Assembly (NCBI GenBank): GCA_034096865.1
Contig: JAWQFJ010008022.1
Span: 215,001 to 279,000, forward strand
Direction: 5' to 3'
Length of the DNA: 64,000 bases
DNA from: Theodoxus fluviatilis
Taxonomy: Eukaryota > Mollusca > Gastropoda > Cycloneritida > Neritidae
Shown: positions 4,882 through 64,000 of the stretch, piece by piece
Position numbering within the stretch: position 1 is the first letter of the stretch
Layout of the letters: each line of letters starts with the position of its first letter
The notes under the pieces: model-generated
The model's database searches: none
The model's input: only the letters and a program-made list of their open reading frames with translations
What the model was told of the DNA's origin: nothing
Program-made: the position numbers and the translations under genes

Positions 4882-4913
<32 letters not shown>

Positions 4914-4959
4914 CGTGCGTGTGTATGTGTGTCTGTGGGTGGGTGTGTATGTGCATGTC

Positions 4960-5005
<46 letters not shown>

Positions 5006-5012
5006 CGTTTCC
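4785..5012. repeat. Imperfect (GT)n array
   Basis: A GT-rich array interrupted by AT, GC and GGGT variants, with a pure stretch at about 4967-5000. His/Thr and Cys/Val frames on the two strands are repeat artefacts. Confidence 0.95.
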
Positions 5013-5276
5013 CTGTAATGTGTGGGTCTGTGTGTGTTTGTGTGAGGCAAATAGGACTGCTGCAGCCGAGCATAGGAGGCTGACCAGGAAAGCACGAGCC
5101 AGCAATCCGCAAGCGCCGGTCCCCAACTCCCGTGCCCACTGCTGACGAGCTTTCCGTGTAAGGACTGGCCACATCAGCCTTCTGTGCACACACCAACCTG
5201 CTGCAACCATCCTGCTCCCGGATGAATGAATGGTCGTCGTCGATCCCGACAGACAAGAAGGATCCGTGTATACATG

Positions 5277-5278
<2 letters not shown>

Positions 5279-5334
<56 letters not shown>
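5279..5334. repeat. (GT)28 microsatellite
   Basis: A pure GT run of about 56 bases. Confidence 0.97.
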
Positions 5335-5338
<4 letters not shown>

Positions 5339-5762
5339 GTGCGTACATGTGTGTTTGTGAATGCATGCATATGTTTATGCATACGAATAAAATCATAAGT
5401 CAACTTAATGACAGTCATTTTTGTTCGTGACTTGGCATTGCATTAAACGTTGTGATGTACTTATCAGTACTGACGGGCTATTACAATCAATAACGTTTGA
5501 GATTTTCACATGAATGCACTCTCACTTCTCCATGCTCATTCGACTAAGCCATGAACAAACTTCAAGTATTTTATAGTTACACCAAAGCTCGTGTATGGTT
5601 ACACTGCATGGTGTGTTCCCTCCTGCGCACTCGCAATCAATTTCTTTAGGCCCAAATAAAGTTGTTAAGGTAACACGGCAAACACAATCCACTCACCCCT
5701 CCCCCACCCTGGTCGTAGGCCTGCCTCCATTTTGAGTGACCACATTGACACTGCACACACAC

Positions 5763-5778
5763 GTGTGTGTGTGTGTGT

Positions 5779-5847
<69 letters not shown>

Positions 5848-5853
5848 CGTGTG
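5763..5853. repeat. (TG)n microsatellite
   Basis: A TG run with one GAG interruption and a GTGCGTGCGT end. It immediately precedes the directly repeated block that starts near 5862. The related (TG)n at 6677-6744 sits in the same place before the second block. Confidence 0.95.
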
Positions 5854-5861
5854 AGCAGAGA

Positions 5862-6684
5862 AATAAATGTCTCGCATACAGTAGATTCATCTGAACATAA
5901 ATCAAAATCTCTCTTTTGCTGAAAACACTTTCGGTTTAAAGAGTGCTCCTGGCGAAGATGAGAGCACGCAGATTGTAGTTTGTATTTGCTTTAATCCCCT
6001 TTTTAAATTCTTCTTTTTTCCCCACGGTCGAAACACGATTAGAGTCGGCATGAAAAAACAGGGTCGGTCGGGAAAGCGTAATGATTTTTTTCTCCTTATG
6101 GTGGACATCCGACATTGGAAGGCTGGTTTTTATTTTGCTTTGGACACGCAAACGTGAAACTCTACTGTCAAAATTGATAGCATAAGATAGATTGTAGAAC
6201 CCGGTGCAAGTAGTTTTGTTTGCATAAACAGTTGTTTTTGGAATCATTTAAATCTGCTATAGATGAGAAATATGCATGTGTTTTCTCACGTCGATAAAAC
6301 ACTGCCAATTCCACTGAAACGAGGCATTCGAAAAGGAGGACATTTGCAGAGGGGCACTTTCAAAGTGGGATTTCTGGGTAAAGAAATATTGGAGAACTCT
6401 TTGCGAGCAGCAGTAGGTAGCCTTCTCACGTATGAAAGTCATCACGCTTTCTTTGAAAAAATATACTTTCCCCCTTTTTTGTCCTTCTTTTCCCACATAC
6501 TGCGGTCAAATGACTGTTATATGTTCCATTTAAATTCTCTGGCAAGGATGTATTCTTTTGCAGTATGGATGGATGGATGGGTGAATGGAATTGTTGAGCT
6601 TGGTGGGAGCAGAACCGGTCTTCCTGTAAGCAATCGAAGAAGAAGTAGGCCGTTACTTACATTGATACTGCGCACATGTGTGTG

Positions 6685-16944: not shown

Positions 16945-18580
16945 CACACAGTGCCAAAATGACCAAAAATAAATCCACCATGACCTTAAATCTAACATAA
17001 AGAAGTTCTGTAAAAAAGCATCACTGATAGTCTGTGGCCAGAACAATGGCTCGGTTGCTGTTAAAATATCTGACAGCTGAAGGAATGAAAGAACGCCGAA
17101 AACGCTCTGTTCGGCACGGAGGCATGATAAGTCTTCCATTCCGTGTGATGCGGAGCTCCATCAGTGCGCCGTGGAGGGGATGCCCTGAATCAAACAGAAT
17201 AGCCCTGGACTTACTGGCAAGTCTTCTCTCAACAAGGGTTTCCAAAATGTCAAGGCTCTGGCCCACAACAGAGCTAGCTTTCTTAATGAGCCTGTTCAGC
17301 CTGCCAGTGTCCTTTGCAGTGGCATTCCCTCCTCAACACACCTATGCAAACACCAATACCTGCACACCATACTCTGATAGAACATGTTCAGCATCTTGTT
17401 ACAAACATTAAATGATCTTAGTCTGCGAAGTAAAAACAATCTTGACTGTGTCTTTTTGAAAACAGCATCAACATGATTGAACCAGCTGAGCTTTTTATCT
17501 AAAACTACCCCCAAATACTTGTACTCACTAACAATCTCAATAGATTCCCCCTTAATGACTACAGGATGGACAATCTCTTTCTTCTTTCGAAAATCGAAAA
17601 TCATTTCCTTCGTCTTGCTTGCATTTAACACTAAATAGTTGAAATCACACCAAGACACAAAATCATCAATACGTTTTCTGTACAAGTTTTTATCACCATC
17701 AAGGATGCAACCAACCACGGCGGAGTCATCAGAAAATTTCTGAAGATGACATGACTCGCCTTGCACTTTAAAATCCGATGTGTACAATGTAAACAAAAAC
17801 GGTGAGAAAACTGTACCCTGAGGTGCTCCGGTGAAAGTGTTAATCATGTCTGATGTAAAAGTACCGTTCCATCGTACAAACAGTGGTCTATCTACTAAAT
17901 AATCCAGAATCCATTTCACAGTATAAGGATGCAAAGACATGTTTTGTAACTTCTGAGCCAAACGATTAGGCTGAATAGTCTGAAATGCAGAATAAACTTA
18001 ATTATAACACAAGCAGAGCTCTTTTCCAGATGTGTGATCACAAAATGCAGCATGAATAATATTGCATCGTCAACTCCTACTTTGGTCCTGTATGCAAACT
18101 GCAAAGAATCTTGAAAAACAGCAACTTGGAGCCTTCAATACAGTCAACACCAATCTTTCAAAAACGTTTATGATGTGAGAAGTAAGAGCTACAGGTCTGT
18201 AGTCACTAAGACATGACACATTAGGAAGTTTTCCAAGCAGATGGAATTTTGCACAATGACAAAGACATGGAAAACATGGTGTGAAAAATCTTACACAGAT
18301 GATCAGCACAGATGGACAATACCTTAGGCTTAACACCATCAGGTCCTGCTGACTTTTTAACCTTAGTCTTCTTCAGCTGTTTACAAACATCTTCAACTGA
18401 CAGTGTGATTTGCTCCTGTGCAACAGAATCAGAAAAATTCCCAGACCTTAAAATCATCTCCAGTACATCCTTAAAATCATGGACATCAAACCTTGCATAA
18501 AATTTATTCAACTCATCAGCATAGTCAGAACCTGCACCAGAACCATCAACCTTCTTTTTCTTTGCACACCCAGTAGCGTA
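16943..18580 (-). pseudogene. LINE reverse transcriptase, 5'-truncated and frameshifted
   Basis: In minus-strand order the frames read: NKFYARFD; KSAGPDGVKPKVL; LSDYRPVALTS (RT palm and fingers motifs); FAYRTKVGVDDAI; GAPQGTVFSPFLFTLYTSDF; QKFSDDSAVVG, the catalytic F-x-DD box at 17725-17736, with FSDD in place of the commoner FADD; then SKTKEMIFDFRKKK and EYKYLGVVLDKKLSWFNH. The C-terminal tail (17021-17266) ends with RFRRSFIPSAVRYFNSN. At least three frame changes separate these parts. No APE domain is present. It looks like a Jockey-superfamily (Rex1/L2/CR1-like) LINE, but the clade is a guess. Its 3' UTR meets the CATA array at 16944, so the array may descend from the element's own tail. 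Confidence 0.85.
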
Positions 18581-24188: not shown

Positions 24189-24193
24189 CCCAT

Positions 24194-25511
24194 TGTCACG
24201 TACAGAAATTCTTAATGTTTAATCAGTAATCTGAAAGAATTTCTGTACTTAGATTTCTGTGTATTTTTGGGTCATTCTGCATTTAGTTCTGTATGATAAC
24301 AAGATGTTTGCAATGATGAATTCTAAAGGTTTGGGACAACGTCATGTTTTGGAGAGGGAATGACGTCAACGCAGGTGGCTTTAGAAAAAAACGTCACTAC
24401 TGATCGAGTGGAGAGAGAGATTGAAAGGTTCGAGGAAGCCGAGGACGTTGGACCAGAGGCCAAGAAAGATGAAGAAGAAGAAGAAGATGATTGACTAAGA
24501 AGAAGAAGGAGAAGACGATTGAATAAGAAGAAGATTGCAGAAGAGGACGAGGAGGGATAGCAGCACCTTCAGGCCCCCAGACCGACGTTCTGTATCCGTG
24601 AAGAAGAAGAAGATTGAAGAGGAGGGGAAGAAGGATAGCAGCACCGTCAGGCCCCCAGACCGACGTTCTGTATCCGTGAAGAAGAAGAAGATTGAAGAGG
24701 AGGGGAAGAAGGATAGCAGCACCGTCAGGCCCCCAGACCGACGTTCTGTATCCGTGAAGAAGAAGAGTAATAGAAGAAGATTCAAGAAGAAGAGGAAGAC
24801 GATTGAAGAGGAAGCAGAAGAAGAAGAAGAAGACGATTAAAGAAGAAGAGAAGAAGAAGAAAACGATTGAAGAAGAAGAGGACGAAGAAGAAGAGGAGGA
24901 AGACGATTGAAGAAGAATATTAGGAAGAAGAAGAGGGAGAAGAGGAGAAGGACGTTGGCAGCACCGCCAGGTCATCAGAGAACGACGACTGCATCGGGAG
25001 GAGGGGAAGCAGAAAGACTGACGACGGAGTGGATTGGCAAGATGGACAATGAAACGTTGAGTGTTGACACGAGCAAGGATACAGCTGAAGATCCTCTGCA
25101 GGATCTCACCACCAAGGTGAAGACGTTTCAATTTTATTCGTATTGTACTGTTCTGAACTTGGAGTACACCGGGGAGAGAGAGAGAGACGCTATCCTCTGT
25201 GGGTTTTTTGTTCGTCTTGTCCGGCCGTGTCTGTTTTGGTAATGCGATTGAAATCGCCAGAGAAGTGTCTGTTTTGGTAGTGCGATTGAAATCGCCAGAG
25301 ATTAATTGAACTACAAAGATTCATGTTTTGTATAATTAAATAATTATATTGTTAACAACTGTTTATTTTTCTTTGGCTGAATCTGAGAGAGAAATATAAC
25401 GGTTGTAACATCAAGCAACCCCAAGACTGGTTGTGACATCTGGTGACCCCAAAGACTAGGCTCTAAAATATTGGTGACACCGATTTTCTCCAGCGTTAAA
25501 AAGCTGTGACA
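24194..25511 (+). repeat. 5' LTR
   Basis: 1318 bp, beginning TGTCACGTACAG and ending GCTGTGACA. By eye it differs from the 3' LTR by about three substitutions and two single-base indels. It contains an AAG/GAA-rich purine block with a 78-bp tandem repeat and an AT-rich stretch near 25321-25345 with TATAATTAAATAATTATAT that could hold a promoter. The 111-codon sense frame at 24907-25242 and a 244-codon antisense frame lie wholly in purine-rich low-complexity sequence and are not credible genes. Confidence 0.95.
24556..24765 (+). repeat. 78-bp tandem repeat inside the LTR
   Basis: GATAGCAGCACC recurs at 24556, 24634 and 24712, each followed by CAGACCGACGTTCTGTATCC. The period is 78 bp (26 codons), which keeps a Lys/Glu-rich sense frame open. 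The same array lies in the 3' LTR from about 29665, where the first unit has one C fewer. Confidence 0.93.
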
Positions 25512-25531
25512 TCTGCTGACCCCGACTATTT
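25512..25531 (+). promoter_or_regulatory. Position of the primer-binding site (not resolved)
   Basis: The sequence directly after the 5' LTR, TCTGCTGACCCCGACTATTT, is where a tRNA primer should pair. It does not begin with the usual TGG. TGCTGACCCCGAC starting two bases in is the closest candidate and would need one change to give TGGTGACC. I cannot name the tRNA. Confidence 0.3.
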
Positions 25532-25707
25532 CATGCTTACTTTTGATGTCGGAGTTTTGAGGTTGCGAAATTTTTGGTCAAGTTTTGCCTCGAAGGCTGA
25601 GTAATTGTTCAATGTGAGTTTGTGTTGTTGTGACAGTTGTGTATTTGAATGCCGCCATCCCGCCCTGATCATTATCTCTAGGTTTGTCCTTGTTGATAAT
25701 CTCTACC

Positions 25708-26994
25708 ATGTCGGAGGAAGATAGCAGGGAGGGTTCTAGGATGAAGACTGAGGAGATGGATGAGGCGCAGCTGTTCGAGTTTTACTCACAGATAGCAGAG
25801 AAAATTAAGATGCGGGGCGATAGATTAGCAGACTTTGTTTCTGGTCATGTTGAGAAAGAGTTGCTGCGTCGAGAACAAACAAAAGAGAGACAATCAAGAT
25901 TGGAGATGGAAGGGAAGCAAATGGAAGAAAGAATGGCTTTAGAGGAAAAGAAATTGGAGCATGCAAAATGGGAACTGCAAGAAAAGTTAAAAGCAAACCC
26001 AAACTATCAGGAGCATGCAAAGTCTAGCTACAAACCTACACTTCCCAAATTACCACTCTTCAAGGAGGGAAAAGATGACATTGATGCGTTTCTCTTCAGA
26101 TTTGAGAATCACGCTAGGGCAGCTGGTTGGGTTCAGTCGCAGTGGGCAGCGTGTGTGGCAACATTGCTAGAGGGGTCTGCGTTGTCTACATACCATTGTT
26201 TGGCTGCTTCGGGTGCTCTGGACTACGAGACCTTGAAGAAGAACCTGCTGATAAAGTTTCGATGTACTGCTGAAGGTTTTAGAGAACGGTTCCGAGCTGC
26301 TAGACCAGTGAGTGAGGAAGGCTTCAGTGCATTTGAGATCAAGCTGAGGCATTTGCTTGATCGTTGGTTAGACCTGTCGGAAACTCAGAAAACCTTTGAT
26401 GCTGTTTGTGAGAGAATGCTGTGTGAACAGTTCCTGAACAGTGTTTCGAAGGACCTGGCCACGTCACTGGGAGAACGCTTAGACGTATCAACTGCGAAGC
26501 TAAAGGACCTGGTTGAGGCTTCGGATCGGTACAGAATGGCTCATCCAGACAAAAACCTGGCTAGAAAGCCAGAGACAACTGTACTGGGTAGTGTTGGCGT
26601 AGGAGATAGGCACAAGGAGTCATTCAACTTGAGAGGGTTTTCCCAAAATCGGGGTTTTTATAGAGGTCATGGTGAGGGCAGGGGATTTCCCACGGGTCAG
26701 CAAGGGAGGCAGGAAAACTCAAGACAGGCACAAACATCAAATCAAAATGTTCCTGACAAGAAACATTACGTCCCTTTCTCAGGTGAATGTCATAACTGCA
26801 AACAGAAAGGACACAAGGCGAAGGATTGCTGGTCCAGAAAGAGCACTGGGTGGTCACCTCAAGGTCAGTTGAAAGGTCAGTCAAACTCGGGTCAGTTTGG
26901 ATCTTCAGCGCTGAGTCTTTTGTCAGCTTCAGGCATCTATCTTACCAGTTGTTCAGGGTTCAGTCAACGGCACACCAGCGAAGATTCTTCGTGA
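25708..26994 (+). CDS. gag: Gag polyprotein, Gmr1-like Gypsy with SCAN-like capsid region
   Basis: 428 residues from the ATG at 25708, the first in frame. An upstream TTG at 25684 is not needed. Residues about 1-110 are highly charged, with many Glu/Lys and probable helix. About 115-290 match the capsid of Gmr1-like Gypsy elements: LPLFKEGKDDIDAFLFRFE, then RERFRAARPVSEEGFSAFEI and LCEQFLNSVSKDLATSL, the tract from which the vertebrate SCAN domain is thought to derive. A Gly/Arg/Gln-rich linker leads to one CCHC zinc knuckle, CHNCKQKGHKAKDC (26788-26829, spacing C-x2-C-x4-H-x4-C), which would bind RNA. Gag would form the particle that packages the element's RNA. The frame is intact. It ends about 55 codons after the knuckle, overlapping the protease frame. 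Confidence 0.92.
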   Translation: MSEEDSREGSRMKTEEMDEAQLFEFYSQIAEKIKMRGDRLADFVSGHVEKELLRREQTKERQSRLEMEGKQMEERMALEEKKLEHAKWELQEKLKANPNYQEHAKSSYKPTLPKLPLFKEGKDDIDAFLFRFENHARAAGWVQSQWAACVATLLEGSALSTYHCLAASGALDYETLKKNLLIKFRCTAEGFRERFRAARPVSEEGFSAFEIKLRHLLDRWLDLSETQKTFDAVCERMLCEQFLNSVSKDLATSLGERLDVSTAKLKDLVEASDRYRMAHPDKNLARKPETTVLGSVGVGDRHKESFNLRGFSQNRGFYRGHGEGRGFPTGQQGRQENSRQAQTSNQNVPDKKHYVPFSGECHNCKQKGHKAKDCWSRKSTGWSPQGQLKGQSNSGQFGSSALSLLSASGIYLTSCSGFSQRHTSEDSS

Positions 26995-28762
26995 TACTGG
27001 TGCTACTTGTGCTGGAGTTAAGAGGGCACTGGTGCAACCAGATCAGTTCACAGGTCAAGAACAACGGGTTACTCTGTTTGAAGGTGCAGAGGATGTTTTT
27101 CCGTTGGCTTCTGTTTGGGTTGACTCACCGTTCTACACAGGGCAGCTTTTGTGCGTGGTCATTGATAACCCATTTGCTGACATTATTCTGGGAAATGTCG
27201 ATGGTGTTATTCCTTCTGTAGCACAGATGATGGACATGGTGCAGAAAGCTGGAAGTTTGAGGAGGCAGAGGGGTGAGACTGCAAATGTCTTGACACGGGC
27301 TCAGACGAAACGGGGTATGCCGGACACAGGGCAATTTATTCGTCGGGGGCCGAGGCTGAGACCGCAGGGACCACGGATACCCATCGCTGATGCCATGGGA
27401 ATGGGACGGTTCCCTGATGGTCAGACGGTACCAGCGGCTGCTCGGCAACAGAGACGCATGGAGGCCGAGGATCGCCGACAGCGGGAGACTGAGGCGAGGG
27501 ACATCACGGCACGCCACGCCATTGAGTACGAGGAGAAGTCGATGCTGATTGAAAAGAACCTGGGCCTGCAGGCTGACCTGAGCAAGGCCGGCGTGGACTA
27601 CGAGAGGCTGAGGCGTGAGGCTGCCGCCCGCCAGGAACAGGACCATGCCAACATCCTGAACCTTCAGTCCCAGCTCAAGGACTTCCGCCAGCAGTTCGAG
27701 GAGACCACAGAGGCCCACAAGAGGGAGGTCAAGAACCTGAATGCCAACATCCGGGACGTGGCACGCCAGCAAGATGCAGTCCTGCGGGAGCTGGCAGAGC
27801 TAAAGACACAGCTGAAGCTGGTAGAGGAGACCCGTGATGTCATCCGCCGTGACCTCATCGAGGTCAACCGCCTGGTCACAGACGACAAGCAGAGGATGGA
27901 TGTGCTGGAGGAGCAGAAGGCTGGCGTGGTGAAAGAGGCTGGGGAGCTGCGTGCCAACCTGCGTGAGGTGGAGAAGGCGCGCTTGGACGCACGTCGTGAG
28001 CTGCGGGAGCTGAGGCACCAGGTGAAGATGCTGGAGAAGCTGACCAAGGAGAGGCAGCAGATGGAATACAAGCTGGCAGCTGCTGAGGCCCGCATCCAGG
28101 AGCAGAGTGGGTCCCACAAGCAGCAAACGGCACGCCTGGAGTCTGACCTGGCAGCCAGACAGGCCGCGCTGGATGCTGCTCAACGGGAGGCCAAGCAGAG
28201 CAGCGAGATGGACCAGGAGATGGCTGACTATGAGGGGACTGTGATGACGCTCAACAATCAGGTAGCTACAAAGGAGACGGATATCCAGAGGCTGGAGGAA
28301 CGCAACAAAGCCCTGCAGGAGCAAGCAGACGGCGTTGAGGAGCAGGCAACAGTGAAAACAGAGATGGAGACGTTGCAGCAGGGTGCCAGGGAGAAGAAGC
28401 TAAAGAGCCTGGAGACTGCCAGACAGGAGGCCGAGGATGCCGGGAGCGAGCGGCAGGCAGAGAAACGGAAGCTGGAGAAGCGTGTTGCACAGCTGGAGGT
28501 GGGAGGCGTGTCCCCGGCTGCCTTTGCATCCAGCAACTCCGTCCCTGTCAAGGCCAAGGAGGCCAAGACAGGCGGTGATGATGATGACGACATCGACGTG
28601 TTTAGGGACGAGGCTGACGAGGAGGAGTCTCGTGGCGCTAGGGACGCTACATCAATGAAGCGCTTGGAAAGTCTTGAGAAAGAGTACAGGAGCCTGAAGA
28701 AGACTCAGGATGACCTGAAGAAGTTGGTGGAAGAAGTACGAAGAAAAAGAAGACGGTGGTAG
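26915..28762 (+). CDS. Retropepsin fused in frame to a captured rootletin-like coiled coil
   Basis: The open frame runs from 26915, just after a TGA, to the TAG at 28760-28762. It lies in the +1 frame relative to gag and overlaps it by 80 bases, so expression would need a +1 frameshift unless the offset is a mutation. The first part is an aspartic protease: VNGTPAKILRDTGATCAG, with the DTG-type catalytic motif at about 26993-27004, and later IILGNVDG. Next comes NVLTRAQTKR, the linker usual after Gmr1-like proteases. Instead of reverse transcriptase, about 480 residues of Gln/Glu/Arg/Leu-rich coiled coil follow without a stop. Block 27932-28035 (KEAGELRANLREVEKARLDA and onward) resembles vertebrate rootletin as I recall it. 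The end is acidic (DDDDDIDVFRDEADEEE) and then basic (VRRKRRRW). Another long coiled-coil protein is possible as the source. Confidence 0.85.
   Translation, partial: VFCQLQASILPVVQGSVNGTPAKILRDTGATCAGVKRALVQPDQFTGQEQRVTLFEGAEDVFPLASVWVDSPFYTGQLLCVVIDNPFADIILGNVDGVIPSVAQMMDMVQKAGSLRRQRGETANVLTRAQTKRGMPDTGQFIRRGPRLRPQGPRIPIADAMGMGRFPDGQTVPAAARQQRRMEAEDRRQRETEARDITARHAIEYEEKSMLIEKNLGLQADLSKAGVDYERLRREAAARQEQDHANILNLQSQLKDFRQQFEETTEAHKREVKNLNANIRDVARQQDAVLRELAELKTQLKLVEETRDVIRRDLIEVNRLVTDDKQRMDVLEEQKAGVVKEAGELRANLREVEKARLDARRELRELRHQVKMLEKLTKERQQMEYKLAAAEARIQEQSGSHKQQTARLESDLAARQAALDAAQREAKQSSEMDQEMADYEGTVMTLNNQVATKETDIQRLEERNKALQEQADGVEEQATVKTEMETLQQGAREKKLKSLETARQEAEDAGSERQAEKRKLEKRVAQLEVGGVSPAAFASSNSVPVKAKEAKTGGDDDDDIDVFRDEADEEESRGARDATSMKRLESLEKEYRSLKKTQDDLKKLVEEVRRKRRRW
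27310..28762 (+). other. Captured host-derived segment (inferred)
   Basis: From about 27310 the base and codon use changes abruptly to GC-rich third positions (CTG, GAG, CAG, CGC), unlike the AT-richer gag and protease. The frame is uninterrupted, as expected of intronless cDNA. The 5' junction lies just after the TRAQTKR codons and keeps the reading frame. The 3' junction may be near 28820-28860, where a GA run and an A-rich run follow the stop. Host origin is inferred from composition, coiled-coil content and the absence of any such module in known Gypsy elements. Confidence 0.75.
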
Positions 28763-29291
28763 AAGCACTTCTTTGTGCTGACTCTGATGCTGTGCCAACC
28801 GGACAAATAACTTTCGCAGAGGGAGAGAGAGAGAGAGAGAGAAAAAAAAAGAAAGAAAGTTTCAGCGTGCAAATTTCTTGTCGGCTGATTATACTTGGAT
28901 ATGCACTATTTTAACCAGGAGCGTGTCATATTTTAACATTGAGTTTTTGGGCTGTCGTTGCATTGTGGTGGGTTTCTTAATTCTTTGTGTAAAGAAGCTT
29001 CATAGTTTGGCATTATTTGGTGTGTGTACCTATAATGACAGATATAAATATTATTGGTTGTTTTCTCTTCTCAGTCCTGAAAGATTGATGAGTGAATTTT
29101 TTGGGAGCAATTATTTCTGCAATAGTGAGTGGTAACTGTCATTTCGTACTGAGAGAATTGCTTCTACTGTTCGGAATGCAACAGCCATTTTTAGTACAAG
29201 CGTATCATTCTGTTATATCAAAATGGGAGACAGGAGACTATTGTCAAAAAAAAAAAAAAAGACAAATTGGCATTTGTTGTTTTTTTTCCCC
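28763..29291 (+). other. Non-coding tail between coiled-coil gene and 3' LTR
   Basis: AT-rich, no long frame. It includes a GA/A-rich run at about 28820-28858 and a 15-base A run near 29247-29261. It may be partly original element sequence downstream of pol and partly captured 3' UTR. I cannot separate the two. Confidence 0.5.
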
Positions 29292-29303
29292 GGGTAAGGG
29301 AGG
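29292..29303 (+). promoter_or_regulatory. Polypurine tract before 3' LTR
   Basis: GGGTAAGGGAGG lies directly against the TGTCAC start of the 3' LTR, the position and composition expected of the plus-strand primer. Confidence 0.65.
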
Positions 29304-30621
29304 TGTCACGTACAGAAATTCTTAATGTTTAATCAGTAATCTGAAAGAATTTCTGTACTTAGATTTCTGTGTATTTTTGGGTCATTCTGCATTTAGTTCT
29401 GTATGATAACAAGATGTTTGCAATGATGAATTCTAAAGGTTTGGGACAACGTCATGTTTTGGAGAGGGAATGACGTCAACGCAGGTGGCTTTAGAAAAAA
29501 AACGTCACTACTGATCGAGTGGAGAGAGAGATTGAAAGGTTCGAGGAAGCCGAGGACGTTGGACCAGAGGCCAAGAAAGATGAAGAAGAAGAAGAAGATG
29601 ATTGACTAAGAAGAAGAAGGAGAAGACGATTGAATAAGAAGAAGATTGCAGAAGAGGACGGGGAGGGATAGCAGCACCGTCAGGCCCCAGACCGACGTTC
29701 TGTATCCGTGAAGAAGAAGAAGATTGAAGAGGAGGGGAAGAAGGATAGCAGCACCGTCAGGCCCCCAGACCGACGTTCTGTATCCGTGAAGAAGAAGAAG
29801 ATTGAAGAGGAGGGGAAGAAGGATAGCAGCACCGTCAGGCCCCCAGACCGACGTTCTGTATCCGTGAAGAAGAAGAGAAATAGAAGAAGATTCAAGAAGA
29901 AGAGGAAGACGATTGAAGAGGAAGCAGAAGAAGAAGAAGAAGACGATTAAAGAAGAAGAGAAGAAGAAGAAAACGATTGAAGAAGAAGAGGACGAAGAAG
30001 AAGAGGAGGAAGACGATTGAAGAAGAATATTAGGAAGAAGAAGAGGGAGAAGAGGAGAAGGACGTTGGCAGCACCGCCAGGTCATCAGAGAACGACGACT
30101 GCATCGGGAGGAGGGGAAGCAGAAAGACTGACGACGGAGTGGATTGGCAAGATGGACAATGAAACGTTGAGTGTTGACACGAGCAAGGATACAGCTGAAG
30201 ATCCTCTGCAGGATCTCACCACCAAGGTGAAGACGTTTCAATTTTATTCGTATTGTACTGTTCTGAACTTGGAGTACACCGGGGAGAGAGAGAGAGACGC
30301 TATCCTCTGTGGGTTTTTTGTTCGTCTTGTCCGGCCGTGTCTGTTTTGGTAATGCGATTGAAATCGCCAGAGAAGTGTCTGTTTTGGTAGTGCGATTGAA
30401 ATCGCCAGAGATTAATTGAACTACAAAGATTCATGTTTTGTATAATTAAATAATTATATTGTTAACAACTGTTTATTTTTCTTTGGCTGAATCTGAGAGA
30501 GAAATATAACGGTTGTAACATCAAGCAACCCCAAGACTGGTTGTGACATCTGGTGACCCCAAAGACTAGGCTCTAAAATATTGGTGACACCGATTTTCTC
30601 CAGCGTTAAAAAGCTGTGACA
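29304..30621 (+). repeat. 3' LTR
   Basis: 1318 bp, same ends as the 5' LTR and the same 78-bp internal repeat. It differs by one extra A near 29470, one missing C in the first repeat unit and about three substitutions by eye. It is followed directly by the CCCAT target repeat. Confidence 0.95.
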
Positions 30622-30626
30622 CCCAT

Positions 30627-49782: not shown

Positions 49783-51013
49783 CTAATCATCTATCATCCT
49801 CTCTTGCCACTCCACTGATCCAGCTGGGGAGTTGCACCAGTGCCTCAGGAGGTTGCGCAGCTTCTTCCCTTCACGTGAAGCTCTGTTGGGGCCTTGTACA
49901 TCCACAGTGTCCATCAGGTTACGTCCTTGCCTCCATTCACCAGGCTCCATGTCCCCGTTCCCTTGCTGACGGTCGACAAGTCTGTTCTGCAACACTGGGT
50001 ATCGGGTGCGCATGAGATTGTGCAGGATGCAGCAAGCTTCCACGATTCTCCTCACAGTCTCTGGGTCATGCTGCATGGTGGTGAGAAGTATCTGGAACCT
50101 GTTGGCCAGGATGCCGAAGGCGTTCTCCACCACCCGTCTTGCCCTGGACAGACTGTAGTTGAAGATCCTCTTTTCACGGATGAGGTGTCTTGAACAGTAC
50201 GGCTTCATGAGGTAGGTTCTGAGGGCGAACGCGTCATCACCAACTATGAAGTAGGGCACATCTTGTGTGTCATTGGGAAGGGGGTCTGGGCCTGGAAACC
50301 CCATGATGAGGTTGCGTTCCTGCCCATCCTTGAGGTCACTTTCGTAGTATATCTGGGCATCTGAAGCTGGCCCGTTGCCTGAAGTATCGATGTAGATGAA
50401 CTTGTAGTCAGCATCAACCATGGCAAAGAGGATGATGCTAAAGAAGCCCTTGTAGTTGTAATAGGTGGACCCTGAGTTGGCTGGTGCTTTGCAGGCCACG
50501 TGCTTCCCATCTATGGCTCCAACGGTGTAGGGAAAATTCCACCTCAGATACCAATCTTCTGCAAGTTGTCTCCAGCCTTGTTCAGTGGTGGGGCACCCGA
50601 GTAGCTCGTGCGCGTAGTCTTCAATGTTGACCTGTACAACTTCTGTATGTGGTTCCAGAGGCTAGGTGCCGCAGAGTAAGTGCCACCTTTAGTCCAGGGT
50701 CCAGGTTGGGACGGAAGTTGATGCTTGGCTTGGTCAACCTGGGTCTCAGACGCTCTACAAGTTCGTCAAACATGGCTGGTGGCATCCTCATGAAGTGATG
50801 GAATGCACGAGGGTCTTCATTCCTCAACTCCACCATCAACTGGTTATACAGTCCAAACTCCATTCTTCTCTCGATCCATCCTCGGACCCACACAGCTTTT
50901 TGACGTCTTCTTCTTCTCCTTCTCCTTCTGTCTAAAACTTGAGACAGTCTGAACAGGTTGTGGTTCTGCTGTTGAATGAGCGCAGCTATCAGATGGACTC
51001 TTTGATCATCCAT
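49783..51013 (-). pseudogene. Harbinger DDE transposase (HARBI1-like) with internal deletion
   Basis: The ATG at 51011-51013 starts MDDQRVHLIAALIQQQNHNL, followed by a run of Arg and a helical region with FDELVERLRPRLTKP and LTLRHLASGTTY. At about 50640 the frame breaks and about 20 family residues are missing. The second frame then reads EVVQVNIEDYAHELL and runs to 49783. Catalytic residues are visible: Asp in VGAIDGKHVACKAP (50509-50511), Asp in ASDAQIY, Asp in GDDAFALRTYL, and Glu in RARRVVENAFGILANRF. The enzyme would cut and paste the element at TTA/TAA targets. The deletion between the N-terminal and catalytic parts should inactivate it. Confidence 0.9.
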
Positions 51014-59159: not shown

Positions 59160-60745
59160 TATAGTAGAAAGTACAACAAACTTCACAATAAGAGAACGAT
59201 ACGAAATATCTGCAATAACATAATCGAAAGTACAGAAATTACTGCAAGAACTTGGCACTAATAAAGCAACTGGCTTAGATGGTATCAATGCTAAAATGTT
59301 AAAACTATCATCTCATATCATTTGTTAAGCCATTGCTAAAATAGGCAACTCTAGCATAGAATGCTGCTGTTTTCCTGACCAGTGGACAAAGGCAAAAGTA
59401 AAACCTTTTTTTTTAAAGGAGACAGGTCAACTATAGAAAATTACAGACCAGTGTATATTCTTCCCGTACCGAGTAAAATTCTATAGCGCCATGTACACGA
59501 TGTTCTCTCTGAATATTTCGAAAAACATAAATTGCTTCCTGCAAATCAGTCTGGATTCAGATCCAAACATTCATGTCAAACGATTTTGACACACATGACA
59601 AATAAAGGGTATAGTACAATTAATGAGGGGAAACTTGTTGGGGTGGTCTTTCTGGACTTCTCAAAGGCTTTTTATCTCGTTCCGCATAATCTACTTTTTA
59701 AAAATTACATGCATCAGGATGTGAGGAATCATCACTTATTTGGTTTCAATTGTATCTTAACGGAAAAACACAACAGATTCCAGTCGACACGAAACTCTCA
59801 AAAGAATGTAAAATCAGTTCTGGCGTACATCAAGATTCAATTCTCGAGCTTGTACTTTACTCCATTTTTTTCGGATTTACCTTCAGTAACCTCCCAGTAT
59901 GACGCTGATCTGTATGCAGACGACACCACTCAATCAAAACTCCAAAAAAAACTTGATGATGATAAGAATAGATTCCTAGACATGACAAAATGGAATGACC
60001 CTGAACCAGCTAAAAGCAACATGTATGCTAATAACTACCCAGCAAAGAAGACGAACTCTCTCCTCTGTGAAACTAAACCTGAAGTTACGCAATTATTCGA
60101 TACCAAACGTTCATAAACAAAAATTACTTGATGTGCTTATTGATGACAGTCGGTCTTGGACCAGTCATGCCGAATATGTCATTAAAAACTCAATACTTAG
60201 TTATTTATTAAAAAAAAAGATAAAAGCATTCCTTCCCACGGAAAACAGGAAAATGTTTCACACTGCATACCTCGCCCCACATATAAATTACTGTTTAAAT
60301 ATCTGGGGACATTGTCCTCACAGATATAAAGATTCTGTCCATCGAATAATGAGGAGATCTGGACGTAATATCATGAAGAAATATGAAATGCCTCTAAATG
60401 AAATATTGTCCAGTTTGAACTGGCTCTCTTTTGAACATAAATGTCAGTTTCAAACGCCCATATTAGTATACAAAACGTTGACATTGCAATCTCCATCCTA
60501 CCTCCAAAAAATGTTCTCATGCTTAGGCGAAACACGCCTCCGTTCATTCTCAATATCAAATCTTCATCCTCCCATGGTCCGCACGGAAGTGTTTCGTAAA
60601 TCGTTCATTTATAATGCTACAAAGATATAGAACTCGCTACCTTTTTCTGTACTAAAAAATACATCGAATCTTCAGTCATTCAATAAGCAGTTAAAACTCT
60701 ATCCCAAGAACAATAAGAAGGCTAGAGAAAAACGTGATGTGAAAG

Positions 60746-60790
<45 letters not shown>

Positions 60791-60932
60791 GAGACAGAGA
60801 GAGAGAGAGACAGAGAGAGTTTACATTCTTCTTGTCGCAATGTTTTATTTTGAGGGCCACTGGAAGATGGACTTTTTATTGTACAAGTGTATACCCTCGC
60901 TAAATAAAATAGTTAAATTGAATTGAATTGAA
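59160..60932 (+). pseudogene. Degenerate LINE reverse transcriptase and 3' end
   Basis: Forward frames, with many stops and shifts, give TGLDGINAKMLKL, NYRPVYILPVPSKIL, LPANQSGFRSKHSCQT, VGVVFLDFSKAF (motif A with its catalytic Asp), a garbled motif B and DLYADDTTQ (catalytic YADD at 59913-59924). Then the frame at 59995-60630 gives QKLLDVLIDDSRSWTSHAEY, YLAPHINYCLNIWGHC and RSGRNIMKKYEMPLNEILSS. The tail ends in SFNKQLKLYPKN and a stop near 60750. A GA array (60748-60822) sits in the 3' UTR, which closes with AATAAAATAG and TTGAATTGAATTGAA. The first half of the fingers region is very eroded. It is a different LINE lineage from the one at 42-46 kb. Confidence 0.82.
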
Positions 60933-63472
60933 AGAGGACTGGTACAGCGGGAAAGAGGACTGGTACAGCGGGAAAGAGGACTGGTACGGGAGGAAAGAGG
61001 TCTGGTACAGGGGTAAAGAAAACCAGTACAGGGGGAAAGAGGTCTGGTACAGGGGGAAAGAAGACTGGTGCAGAGGAAAAGAGGTCTGGTACAGGGGGAA
61101 AGAGAACTGGTGCAGAGGGAAAGAGGTCTGCAACAGGAGGAAAGAGATCTGGTACAGGGGGAAAGAGGTCTGGTACAGGGGGAAAGAGGACTGGTGCAGA
61201 GGGAAAGAGGTCTGGTACAGGGGAAAGAGGTCTGGTACTGGGAGAAAGAGGACTGGTACAGGGAGAAAGAGGTCTGGTACAAGGGGAAAGAGAACTGTGC
61301 AGAGGGAAAGAGGACTGGTACAGAGGGAAAGAGGTCTGGTACAGGGGGAAAGAGGTCTGGTACAGGGAGAAAGAGGACTGGTACAGGACGAAAGAGATCT
61401 AGTACAGGGGGAAAGAGAACTGTGCAGGGGGAAAGAGAACTGCTGCAAAGAAAAAGAGGTCTGGAACAGGAGGAAAGAGGACTGGTACAGGTATAAAAAT
61501 GACTGGTACAGGGGGACAGAGGTCTGGTACAGAAGGAAAAAGGTCAGGAACAGGAGGAAAGAGGACTTATGCAAGGAGAAAGAGGTCTGGTAAAGGGTGA
61601 AAGAGGACTGGTACAGGGGAAAGAGGACTGGTACAGTGGGAAAGAGGTCTGGTGCAGCTGGAAAGAGGTCTGGAACAGGAGAAAAGGGTGCTGGTGCAGC
61701 TGAAAAGAGGTCTGGAACAGGAGGAAAGAGGACTGGTGCAGAGGGAAAGAGGACAGGTACAGAAGGAAAGAGGTCTTGTGCAGAGGGAAAGAGGACTGGT
61801 GCATGGGGAAAGAGGACTGGTGCAGGGGGAAAGAGGACTGGTGCAGGGGGAAAGAGGACTGGTGCAGGGGGAAAGAGGACTGGTGCAGGGGGAAAGAGGA
61901 CTGGTGCAGGGGGAAAGAGGACTGGTGCAGGGGGAAAGAGGACAGGTACAGGGGGAAAGAGGACTGGTGCAGGGGGAAAGAGGACTGGTGCAGAGGGAAA
62001 GAGGACTGGTGCAGGGGGAAAGAGGACAGGTACAGGGAGACAGAGGTCTGGTGCAGGGTGAAAGAGGTCTAGTGCAGGGGGAAAGAGGACTGGTGCAGGG
62101 GGAAAGAGGTCTGGTGCAGGAGGAAAGAGGACTGATGCAGGGAGAAAGAGGTCTGGTACAGGAGGAAAGAGGACTGATACAGGAGGAAAGAGGACTGGTA
62201 CAGGGAGAAAGAAGACTTTTTACATGGGGATAGAGGACCGGTTCAGAGAGGAAGAGGACTGGTACAGGGAAAAAGAGAACTGGTGCAGGGTGAAAGAGGA
62301 CTGGTGCATGGTGAAAGAGGACCGGTGCAGGGGGAAAGAGAACTGGTGCAGGGGGAAAGAGGACTGGTGCAGAGGGAAAGAGAACTGGTGCAGGGTGAAA
62401 GAGGACTAGTACAGAGGGAAAGAGGACAGGTACAGAAGGAAAGAGGTCTTGTGCAGGGGGAAAGAGGTCTGGCACAGGGGGAAAGAGGACTGGCACAGGG
62501 GGAACGAGGACTGGTGCAGAGGGAAAGAGGACTGGCACAGGGGGAACGAGGACTGGTGCAGAGGGAAAGAGGACTGATACAGAGGGAAAGAGGACTGATA
62601 CAGAGGGAAAGAGGACTGATACAGGGGGAAAGAGGACTGGCACAGGGGGAACGAGGACTGGTGCAGAGGGAAAGAGGACTGGTACAGGGGGAAAGAGGAC
62701 TGGTACAGGGGGAAAGAGGACTGGCACAGGGGGAACGAGGACTGGTGCAAGGAGAAAGAGGTCTGGTAAAGGGTGAAAGAGGACTGGTACAGGGGGAAAG
62801 AGGACTGGTACAGGGGGAAAGAGGACTGGTCCAGCTGGAAAGAGGTCTGGAACAGGAGAAAAGAGATCTGGAACAGGAGGAAAGAGGACTGGTACAGGGG
62901 GAAAGAGGACTGGTACAGGGGGAAAGAGGACTGGTACAGGGCGAAAGAGGTCTGGTACTGGAGGAAATAGATCTGGAACAGGAGGAAAGAGGATTGGTAC
63001 AGAGAGAAAGAGTACTGGTACAGGGGGAAAGAGGACTGGTACAGGGGGAAAGAAGACTGGTACAGGGAGAAATAGGACTGGTACAGTGGGAAAGAGGACT
63101 GGTGCAGAGGGAAAGAGGTCTTGTACAGGGGGAAAGAGGACTGGTGCAGGGGGAAAGAGGTCTTGTACAGGGGGAAAGAGGACAGGTACAGGGGGAAAGA
63201 GGACTGGTGCAGGGGGAAAGAGGACTGGTGCAGGGAGAAAGAGGACTGGTGCAGAGGGAAAGAGGACTGGTGCAGGGGGAAAGAGGACTGGTACAGGGGA
63301 AAAGAGGACTGGTACAGGGATAAGAGGACTGGTACAGTTGAAAAGAGGACTGGTACAGGGATAAGAGGACTGTACAGGGATAAGAGGACTGGTACAGGGG
63401 GGAAAAGGACTGTACAGGGGGAAAAGGACTGGTACAGGGGAAAGAGGACTGGTACAGGGGGAAAGAGGGATG
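60933..63472. repeat. 21-bp minisatellite, about 120 units
   Basis: The unit is GAGGACTGGTACAGGGGGAA plus A, with T/C variation at GGTCTGG and GGTGCAG, and some 18-20-bp units near both ends. Because 21 is a multiple of three, both strands stay open for up to 394 codons (RGLVQGE on plus; SSFPLYQ, SPCTSPL or PVPVLFP on minus). There is no evidence that these frames are genes. The array begins directly at the TTGAA tail of the LINE. Confidence 0.95.
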
Positions 63473-64000
63473 TTATCACTACCAAATGGTTAGATTTTAT
63501 CCTGCATGAAGTGTACAGCAAATTGCTTGTGTCTGGGACTCCTGAAAACAAAGCATTTGCCTTGTAGGTGGAGCATGTAATTATTTTCATTAGTTGCGTT
63601 ATTTTTGAAACGATAGTTTGTTTAATCTTGTGGCAGTTGCCCTAACTACATATTTACAGATAGCGAGTTGAAAATGTCCACACTTGCTTCATTTAGTTTG
63701 CATTATGCAACCAAATGGTACTAAAATGCTTTGATGGTGTGTAGAGTAGTTTTTAAAGTGGGTTTTGCGTTCCATTTTTGGCGGGAGAACATAATTAAAA
63801 GCACAAAATAATTGTAGTTAATTCTTATTTATCAAGCATCATAGACTAGACTGATTGCATATGTTTTTGCAAGCCAAACAGAATGGTGTAGAGTTCATTG
63901 TTCAGTGTTGAATAGAATCTGAGATATTCATACCACAAATTTCGATTGTTTACAATGACATCCTTTTCGGACTTTTGGTAACCATGGTAACCATAAGACA
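63473..64000. other. Non-coding end of window
   Basis: AT-rich sequence with no frame or repeat of note. Confidence 0.6.

Follow-up and report, generated by a model that had tools for sequence, protein, structure and literature searches.

As described in the available parts of the respective sources, the maize long terminal repeat (LTR) element Bs1 carries segments transduced from three host genes (PMC13317346), crocodilian endogenous retroviruses (ERVs) have taken up host messenger RNA (mRNA), namely that of nectin3 in CrocERV31 and that of KIT ligand in CrocERV29 (PMC4299795), and the LTR retrotransposons of bdelloid rotifers contain extra open reading frames (ORFs) that are common to different retroelement groups, one of them with a coiled coil (PMC5408684). 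Here we describe an LTR element at positions 24194-30621 of a 64,000-nucleotide stretch of the genome of the gastropod Theodoxus fluviatilis (contig JAWQFJ010008022.1, positions 215,001 to 279,000; referred to as the window). Very probably, this element belongs to a non-autonomous, trans-mobilised family, descended from a Ty3/Gypsy element of the Gmr1 type, in which a mosaic of host genes stands in place of pol.

Its LTR pair, its target duplication and the comparison of the two LTRs identify the element as a young LTR retrotransposon. The LTRs (TGTCACG...TGTGACA; 24194-25511 and 29304-30621, on the forward strand, as are all parts of the element described below) are each 1,318 bp long, with 3 mismatches and two 1-bp indels distinguishing one from the other, and they lie between two copies of the target-site duplication (TSD) CCCAT at 24189-24193 and 30622-30626; the alignment thus bears out an earlier note on this DNA, which had reported both features. 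A primer-binding-site-like stretch (25514-25529) agrees in 12 of 16 letters with what we take to be the 3' end of tRNA-Trp. The gag gene extends from the ATG at 25708 to a stop codon at 26994 (open frame 25684-26994) and encodes a SCAN domain (~26272-26523; Pfam E 3.7e-7, above the cut-off) and a CCHC knuckle (~26785-26829; Pfam E 0.0027, below the cut-off). The stretch for the protease and its TRAQTK linker (26945-27309) contains DTG, the match to Asp_protease_2 being weak (E 0.0014, below the cut-off), and lies with a coiled-coil-rich segment of 484 residues, hereafter the coil, in a single open frame (26915-28762). The TG...CA LTR pair, the target duplication, the gag gene with its CCHC knuckle and the protease are those of a Ty3/Gypsy element, with the Pfam matches of knuckle and protease below the cut-off. 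Consistent with the earlier note, no reverse transcriptase (RT), RNase H or integrase was found in the 9 of 28 interior stop-to-stop frames of at least 60 aa that were scanned, whole or largely. The element is a non-autonomous derivative of a Ty3/Gypsy LTR retrotransposon. Note that the LTRs contain internal 78-bp tandem repeats and purine-rich GAAGAA tracts at 24400-24950, and that LTR length varies from copy to copy of the family.

To place the element among its relatives, we searched its own genome (965 Mb in 19,668 contigs). Because matches were scored from 40 of 59 candidates for the coil block, 40 of 41 for gag and 150 of 220 for the frame listing, all counts from these searches are lower bounds. 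At least 22 near-complete gag matches were obtained at 96-100% identity, 15 on contigs that also bear the coil and 7 on coil-less contigs (C4626, twice, C4382, C11562, C5544, C9544 and C616); in at least 12 further matches the middle of gag is missing, and each of these 12 is on a contig that bears the coil. The coil-less locus on C4382, L043, is 97% identical to the window in the protease, 96% in the 3' region and 75% in the LTR (over 1,192 columns), and it encodes Integrase_H2C2 (7.7e-22) and rve (6.1e-16), followed by RVT_1 (2.7e-18) and RNase H (2.8e-37). Judged by eye, L044 on C8331 (gag 89% identical) is a further pol-bearing relative. According to the available parts of the sources, an integrase that precedes RT is the mark of Gmr1 (PMC6238403), and SCAN is present in over half of Gmr elements only (PMC4131045). 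It is in L043 alone, as the relative that shares protease, 3' region and LTR with the window, that this order is seen, and it upholds the Gmr1-like affinity proposed in the earlier note. The same order contradicts the norm given there of a TRAQ linker that continues into RT, for in L043 the linker leads to integrase and RT comes after, as the consulted part of PMC6238403 describes for Gmr1.

The comparison with L043 also delimits what was exchanged. The ~3.0 kb pol of L043, with integrase, RT and RNase H, is swapped in the window for a block of ~1.5 kb, in line with the earlier note's proposal that pol was replaced and that a helper is needed. At the 5' joint, the window and L043 agree through ...AAACGGG, and the sequence of the donor type, L013, is CCCCACGGGG. 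The joint thus sits in an ACGGG common to all (27310-27314), and in four loci (L009, L010, L013 and L014) the match to the window starts exactly at 27310. The donor match in L013 and L015 stops at 28797. The captured block (27310-28797) thus extends beyond the stop codon of the coil frame (28760-28762), to ~28797, and sequence shared with L043 resumes at 28822 (96% over 483 columns), with 28798-28821 falling between. The 3' region (28822-29303) ends in a purine tract (29292-29303). An A-run at ~29247 was considered as a captured poly(A) tail and rejected, because the coil-less L043 matches all of 28822-29303.

The block is a mosaic that combines in frame pieces of three or more genes that have intron-bearing copies in the host: rootletin, a coiled-coil gene at locus L011 and eEF1-delta (eEF1D). 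Like Bs1, the element contains spliced pieces from several host genes. The rootletin-derived part spans 27656-28036, and 27902-28035 is 96.3% identical over 134 bp to a host exon with AG/GT borders (L038:1507-1640, on C17987); the host intron there is ~1.27 kb long, and the exons on either side of it are joined in the element L010. At L011, on C2014, the second coiled-coil gene shows three exons bordered by GT-AG, all of which are joined in L014, and it accounts for 28030-28328 (identity of 94.3% across 158 bp in one exon and of 81.1% across 164 columns, which include a 21-nt gap, in another); an intron of ~1.07 kb has been spliced out in the window block at 28187. Searches of this gene against PDB and Pfam returned weak or chance-level matches only. 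The third part, 28468-28627, is 92% identical to a host exon (L017:4954-5116, on C1462) with the donor GTAAGC, and a further short piece lies at 28706-28736. We assign the exon to eEF1-delta because of the downstream exons on the same contig, where an EF1_GNE exon (1.1e-10) follows ~4.8 kb downstream and later ...VQSVDIVAFNKI and a stop codon; the host parent of this part is L017 together with L029.

The likeness of the coil to rootletin exceeds chance. Searched against PDB, the coil matched human rootletin (6l5j) at E 3.7e-26, the best non-rootletin match being at 0.09, and for a 142-residue piece of it 28 homologues at 45-84% identity were obtained among 147 candidates from a large protein collection. 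One of the 28 carries the source name rootletin, and the similarity to these proteins starts and stops at common points that resemble exon edges. The best score against the 28 was 84.7 bits, whereas none of 301 controls, made up of 300 shuffles that preserve the heptads plus the sequence in reverse, exceeded 38.1 bits. Third-position guanine-cytosine content is 0.41 in the protease and climbs to 0.81 in the rootletin-derived part. With the coil, no Pfam family scored above the cut-off, and only weak or chance-level Pfam and PDB matches were obtained for its C-terminal half; the protein collection gave no result for the entire coil or for its C-terminal third, and neither the coil nor gag had matches in viral contigs. 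Relative to L013, which retains the rootletin part undivided (6l5j, E 1.6e-38 in a single stretch), the window block has lost 168 bp (56 codons) internally, and the scar lies at a CAACCGC repeat (27860-27871). Exon skipping as the origin of the resulting 56-residue gap was rejected because L013 holds the missing stretch and the joint sits within the repeat.

Related mosaics occur in other LTR elements of this genome. Two gag-less elements carry longer versions with spectrin repeats: L014, with LTRs 94.4% alike, the TSD CTTAG and spectrin matches at Pfam 1.7e-30, and L010, whose LTRs are 96.0% and 93.3% alike in two pieces, with the TSD GCAGG and spectrin matches at 5.2e-18 and 3.1e-18. Stop codons break the mosaics of both. 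The same kind of gene is present in L009 and L013 (spectrin 6.7e-25 and 1.5e-21; alpha-spectrin 3e-49 in L013), for neither of which an LTR pair was demonstrated. At L015 there is a 304-bp LTR pair, 98.7% alike, without a clear target duplication, and the knuckle CFYCQKRGHIQRYC is encoded in L012 and L015 alike by an open frame that continues into the coil. Pfam found no gag domain in this upstream part, the knuckle scoring 0.02-0.033, below the cut-off; we take it for a different zinc-knuckle Gag fused in frame. To judge from these sequences, the mosaic has moved between LTR elements, because longer versions reside in the gag-less L010 and L014 and it is fused to another Gag elsewhere. The immediate donor of the block was probably element RNA, because the longest relatives are element-borne or element-like (L010, L014 and L015, with LTR pairs, and L013). 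Compared with L013, the window block is without the spectrin part and is 168 bp shorter in rootletin, and these differences fit donors of the L013 kind together with template switching. Note that in L010 (orientation reversed) the gag-less mosaic runs on, by eye, into hydrophobic, membrane-like segments at 4907-6013, and that a further gag-protease-like ORF with weak Pfam matches, below the cut-off, adjoins the eEF1D exon at L017:117-1787 on the reverse strand.

The arrangement in the window is repeated across the genome. At least 50 matches to 27310-28762 were found, and at least 26 of them, the window's included, cover at least 98% of the block at 98-100% identity. We compared 10 of the 25 other near-full copies; those not fetched, and the partial matches C1345, C3808 and C15306, fall outside the comparison. 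All 10 have the 5' region, gag, protease and coil, with the middle of gag missing in four (L019, L024, L025 and L027), and nine are flanked by LTR sequence at either end, which in two of these is cut by a contig end. In a search for identical 5-mers flanking any start motif and end motif with 3-9 kb between them, 8 of 11 copies (the window's included) showed perfect and differing 5-bp duplications (CCCAT, CCTAC, TGTGT, ATAGA, CACAG, ATAAT, GTTTA and TAGAG), whereas three have no complete LTR pair, since L021 and L023 run off their contigs and L024 is without a second LTR start. Gaps aside, the LTRs of a pair differ by 1 to 7 mismatches in L019, L020, L025, L027 and L028, by 36 in L026, and by 3 over 1,026 aligned columns in L022; the alignment of the truncated L023 pair was poor (84-91%), L021 has 171 identical bp and L024 has no pair. 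The checks that the earlier note had proposed, namely a comparison of the coil with CROCC and other coiled-coil families, a search for an intron-containing parent in the same genome and a search for further copies with different TSDs, turned out in favour of host capture that includes rootletin, of such a parent and of such copies. (The flanks of L022 are alike, ~1.66 kb at 98% on both sides, as if it were inserted inside a tandem duplication.)

The frame in which the coil is read has remained open. Neither indels nor internal stops interrupt the 1,779-bp protease-coil frame in any of the 10 fetched copies. The coil block differs from the window copy by 0.82% substitution with 0 gap events (119 substitutions in 14.5 kb aligned), as compared to 3.13% substitution and 8.7 gap events per kb in the 3' region (122 substitutions, 34 gap events) and 2.09% and 9.9 per kb in the 5' region. 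Scaled to 119 coil substitutions, the ratio of the 3' region predicts ~33 gap events, an expectation that low-complexity tracts and shared ancestry weaken. (The sums 119, 122, 34 and 40 are manual totals over per-copy rows; because the window copy is the reference throughout, an indel specific to it recurs in every comparison, and the copies are related by descent, so that the counts are not independent events.) Between the window block and L013, L014 and L015 there are three indels, of 21, 6 and 9 nt; L014 has 4 stop codons within 27533-28696. The frame listing contains 29 coil-family rows, 10 with 1,022-1,037 aa, 7 with 820-834 aa, 11 between 349 and 913 aa and one of 2,334 aa, and in none of the 29 does a stop fall inside the match. 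A single gag-protease-coil frame of 820-824 aa is kept even by the gag-deleted L019, L024 and L027. Together, these observations suggest upkeep of the open frame.

We propose that the mosaic would have been built stepwise, by template switching while co-packaged RNAs were reverse-transcribed, and that it may have entered an element of the window type from an L013- or L014-like donor at the ACGGG microhomology. The pol-less family would then move by means of the RT and integrase of L043-like relatives. Several points weigh against this reading. That the family is mobilised in trans is something we infer, and of the seven near-identical coil-less gag copies just one, L043, was read. The window copy has gag and protease in different frames, so that of the gag-protease-coil structure claimed in the earlier note the gag, the CCHC knuckle, the protease and the in-frame join of protease and coil stand, but gag is out of frame here. 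(A programmed +1 frameshift between gag and protease, considered from the window copy, was dropped because in 8 of the 10 other copies fetched the gag start and the coil share one frame; in L026 they do not, and L025, which escaped the search motif, has an open frame of 828 aa in the genome-wide listing.) By itself, the eEF1D exon matched no eEF1 model (Ribosomal_60s at 0.0057, below the cut-off; nucleoporins in PDB at 0.025), and this analysis obtained no host match for 27310-27655, 28329-28467 and 28628-28705 and no identity for the L011 gene. Finally, there is little or no constraint at the level of residues, and selection on residues is not suggested. In particular, the ratio of non-synonymous to synonymous polymorphism (pN/pS) relative to the window copy is 0.94 for the coil over 10 copies (0.73 for gag; 0.21 for the protease, with few changes), and distinct coil variants number 19 synonymous and 45 non-synonymous, near the chance expectation (0.26 to 0.70). 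Between classes, the corresponding ratio of substitutions (dN/dS) over 27533-28696 is 0.68 for L013, 0.58 for L015, 0.71 for L014 and 0.97 for L009; by part it is 0.18-0.54 for rootletin, 0.55-1.02 for the second gene and 0.87-1.52 for eEF1D.

What the coil might do for the element is a separate matter. It is a tentative conjecture that a Gag-protease-coil polyprotein is made and co-assembles with helper Gag, the coil aiding multimerisation or transport, which would account for the open frame and for the second Gag-coil fusion. Still more doubtful, and on the whole unlikely, is that the host-derived coil is a mobile assembly or transport module, handed from one LTR element family to another, joined to two Gags and kept in frame for better entry into the particles of pol-bearing relatives than ordinary defective copies would achieve; were this so, the coil would be the invention behind a successful lineage of retrotransposon parasites. 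The alternative to such functions, to which we give a probability only a little short of even, is that the coil is a passive passenger of defective elements packaged by a helper and that its open frame is a legacy of recent capture. The pN/pS of the coil and the youth of the copies, with the low substitution in the block, are as expected from a passenger, and because the coil lies in the same element in the four gag-deleted copies fetched, out of 12 such matches on coil contigs, the elements can do without an intact Gag in cis. A passenger does not readily explain why the coil lacks gap events while the 3' region, with a similar number of substitutions, has 34, why all three indels between classes preserve the frame, why L019, L024 and L027 keep theirs despite the deletion in gag, or why a second Gag-coil fusion exists.

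The remaining alternatives concern the origin of the block. Direct capture of one host rootletin mRNA, as the earlier note had it, draws on the strong rootletin match and the 96% identical host exon, and capture from the host, rootletin included, holds; a single mRNA is very improbable and already contradicted, since downstream of 28036 parts match two other intron-bearing host genes, L011 and eEF1D, and LTR elements hold longer forms of the block. Retrocopies are common, and the block is without introns, as it would be if a processed pseudogene made by a long interspersed nuclear element (LINE) had inserted into a Gmr1 element that lost pol later. We consider this scarcely probable: neither a poly(A) tail nor a target duplication surrounds the block, the longest flank repeat being 8 bp (equalled in 232 of 300 shuffles) and a poly(A) run being absent at the donor junction near 28797, and the multi-gene mosaic is common to other LTR elements and joined in frame at a microhomology. 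That the coil is an ancestral Gypsy gene merely resembling rootletin, or an assembly chimera, has in its favour that several LTR element types of this genome carry it and is hardly to be believed in view of the near-identical intron-bearing host exons, the coil-less relative with pol, the at least 26 near-full matches and the distinct TSDs in 8 of 11 copies.

Elsewhere in the window, a DDE_Tnp_4 transposase (49786-50661, reverse strand; Pfam 3.1e-30) is presumably Harbinger-like. RT fragments lie at 17299-17997 on the reverse strand (RVT_1 7.5e-13) and at 59487-60113 on the forward strand (RVT_1 2e-6, below the cut-off), a long tandem array with several open frames and SPCTSPL / RGLVQGE repeats occupies 60845-63600, and arrays of the IHTY and PSRPV types occur at other places.

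A mosaic of cytoskeletal genes that replaces pol is not described in the available parts of PMC13317346, PMC4299795 and PMC5408684, and among the titles and abstracts listed from the open literature, mostly without subscription papers, on retrotransposons with rootletin, spectrin, coiled coils or captured genes, with eEF1D outside the search, none described a comparable element. This single genome displays the host parents of three parts, likely intermediates (the gag-less longer mosaics), a relative of the recipient (L043) and the pol-less product. It thus makes possible a stepwise test of how LTR elements assemble chimeric genes from several host mRNAs, and the same system lets the success of a pol-less parasite lineage be examined. 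With the Gmr1 clade of Ty3/Gypsy, as the accessible text of PMC6238403 and PMC4131045 portrays it, the family shares SCAN in gag and, through L043, integrase upstream of RT, but it differs in being without pol. The coil corresponds to the region of rootletin (CROCC) in the solved fragment 6l5j, whereas the window product is a fragment with a 56-residue gap fused to other genes; from its sequence, we would not file it as a member of the rootletin family, because the homology is that of a fragment inside a chimera. The bdelloid elements are alike in having extra ORFs shared across element groups, one with a coiled-coil domain, but there the extra ORF lies downstream of pol, and the part of PMC5408684 available mentions no mosaic built from host cytoskeletal genes. 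Bs1 is likewise an LTR element that holds pieces of several host genes (PMC13317346, in part); it is a plant element, whereas the mosaic of the window type is fused to Gag-protease, is multicopy and is present in three or more types of LTR element. CrocERV31 and CrocERV29 are, like the present family, animal LTR elements with host mRNA, and the capture of nectin3 cost its carrier env (PMC4299795, in part). However, these are vertebrate endogenous retroviruses with one gene each, whereas in the family described here pieces of several genes replace pol.

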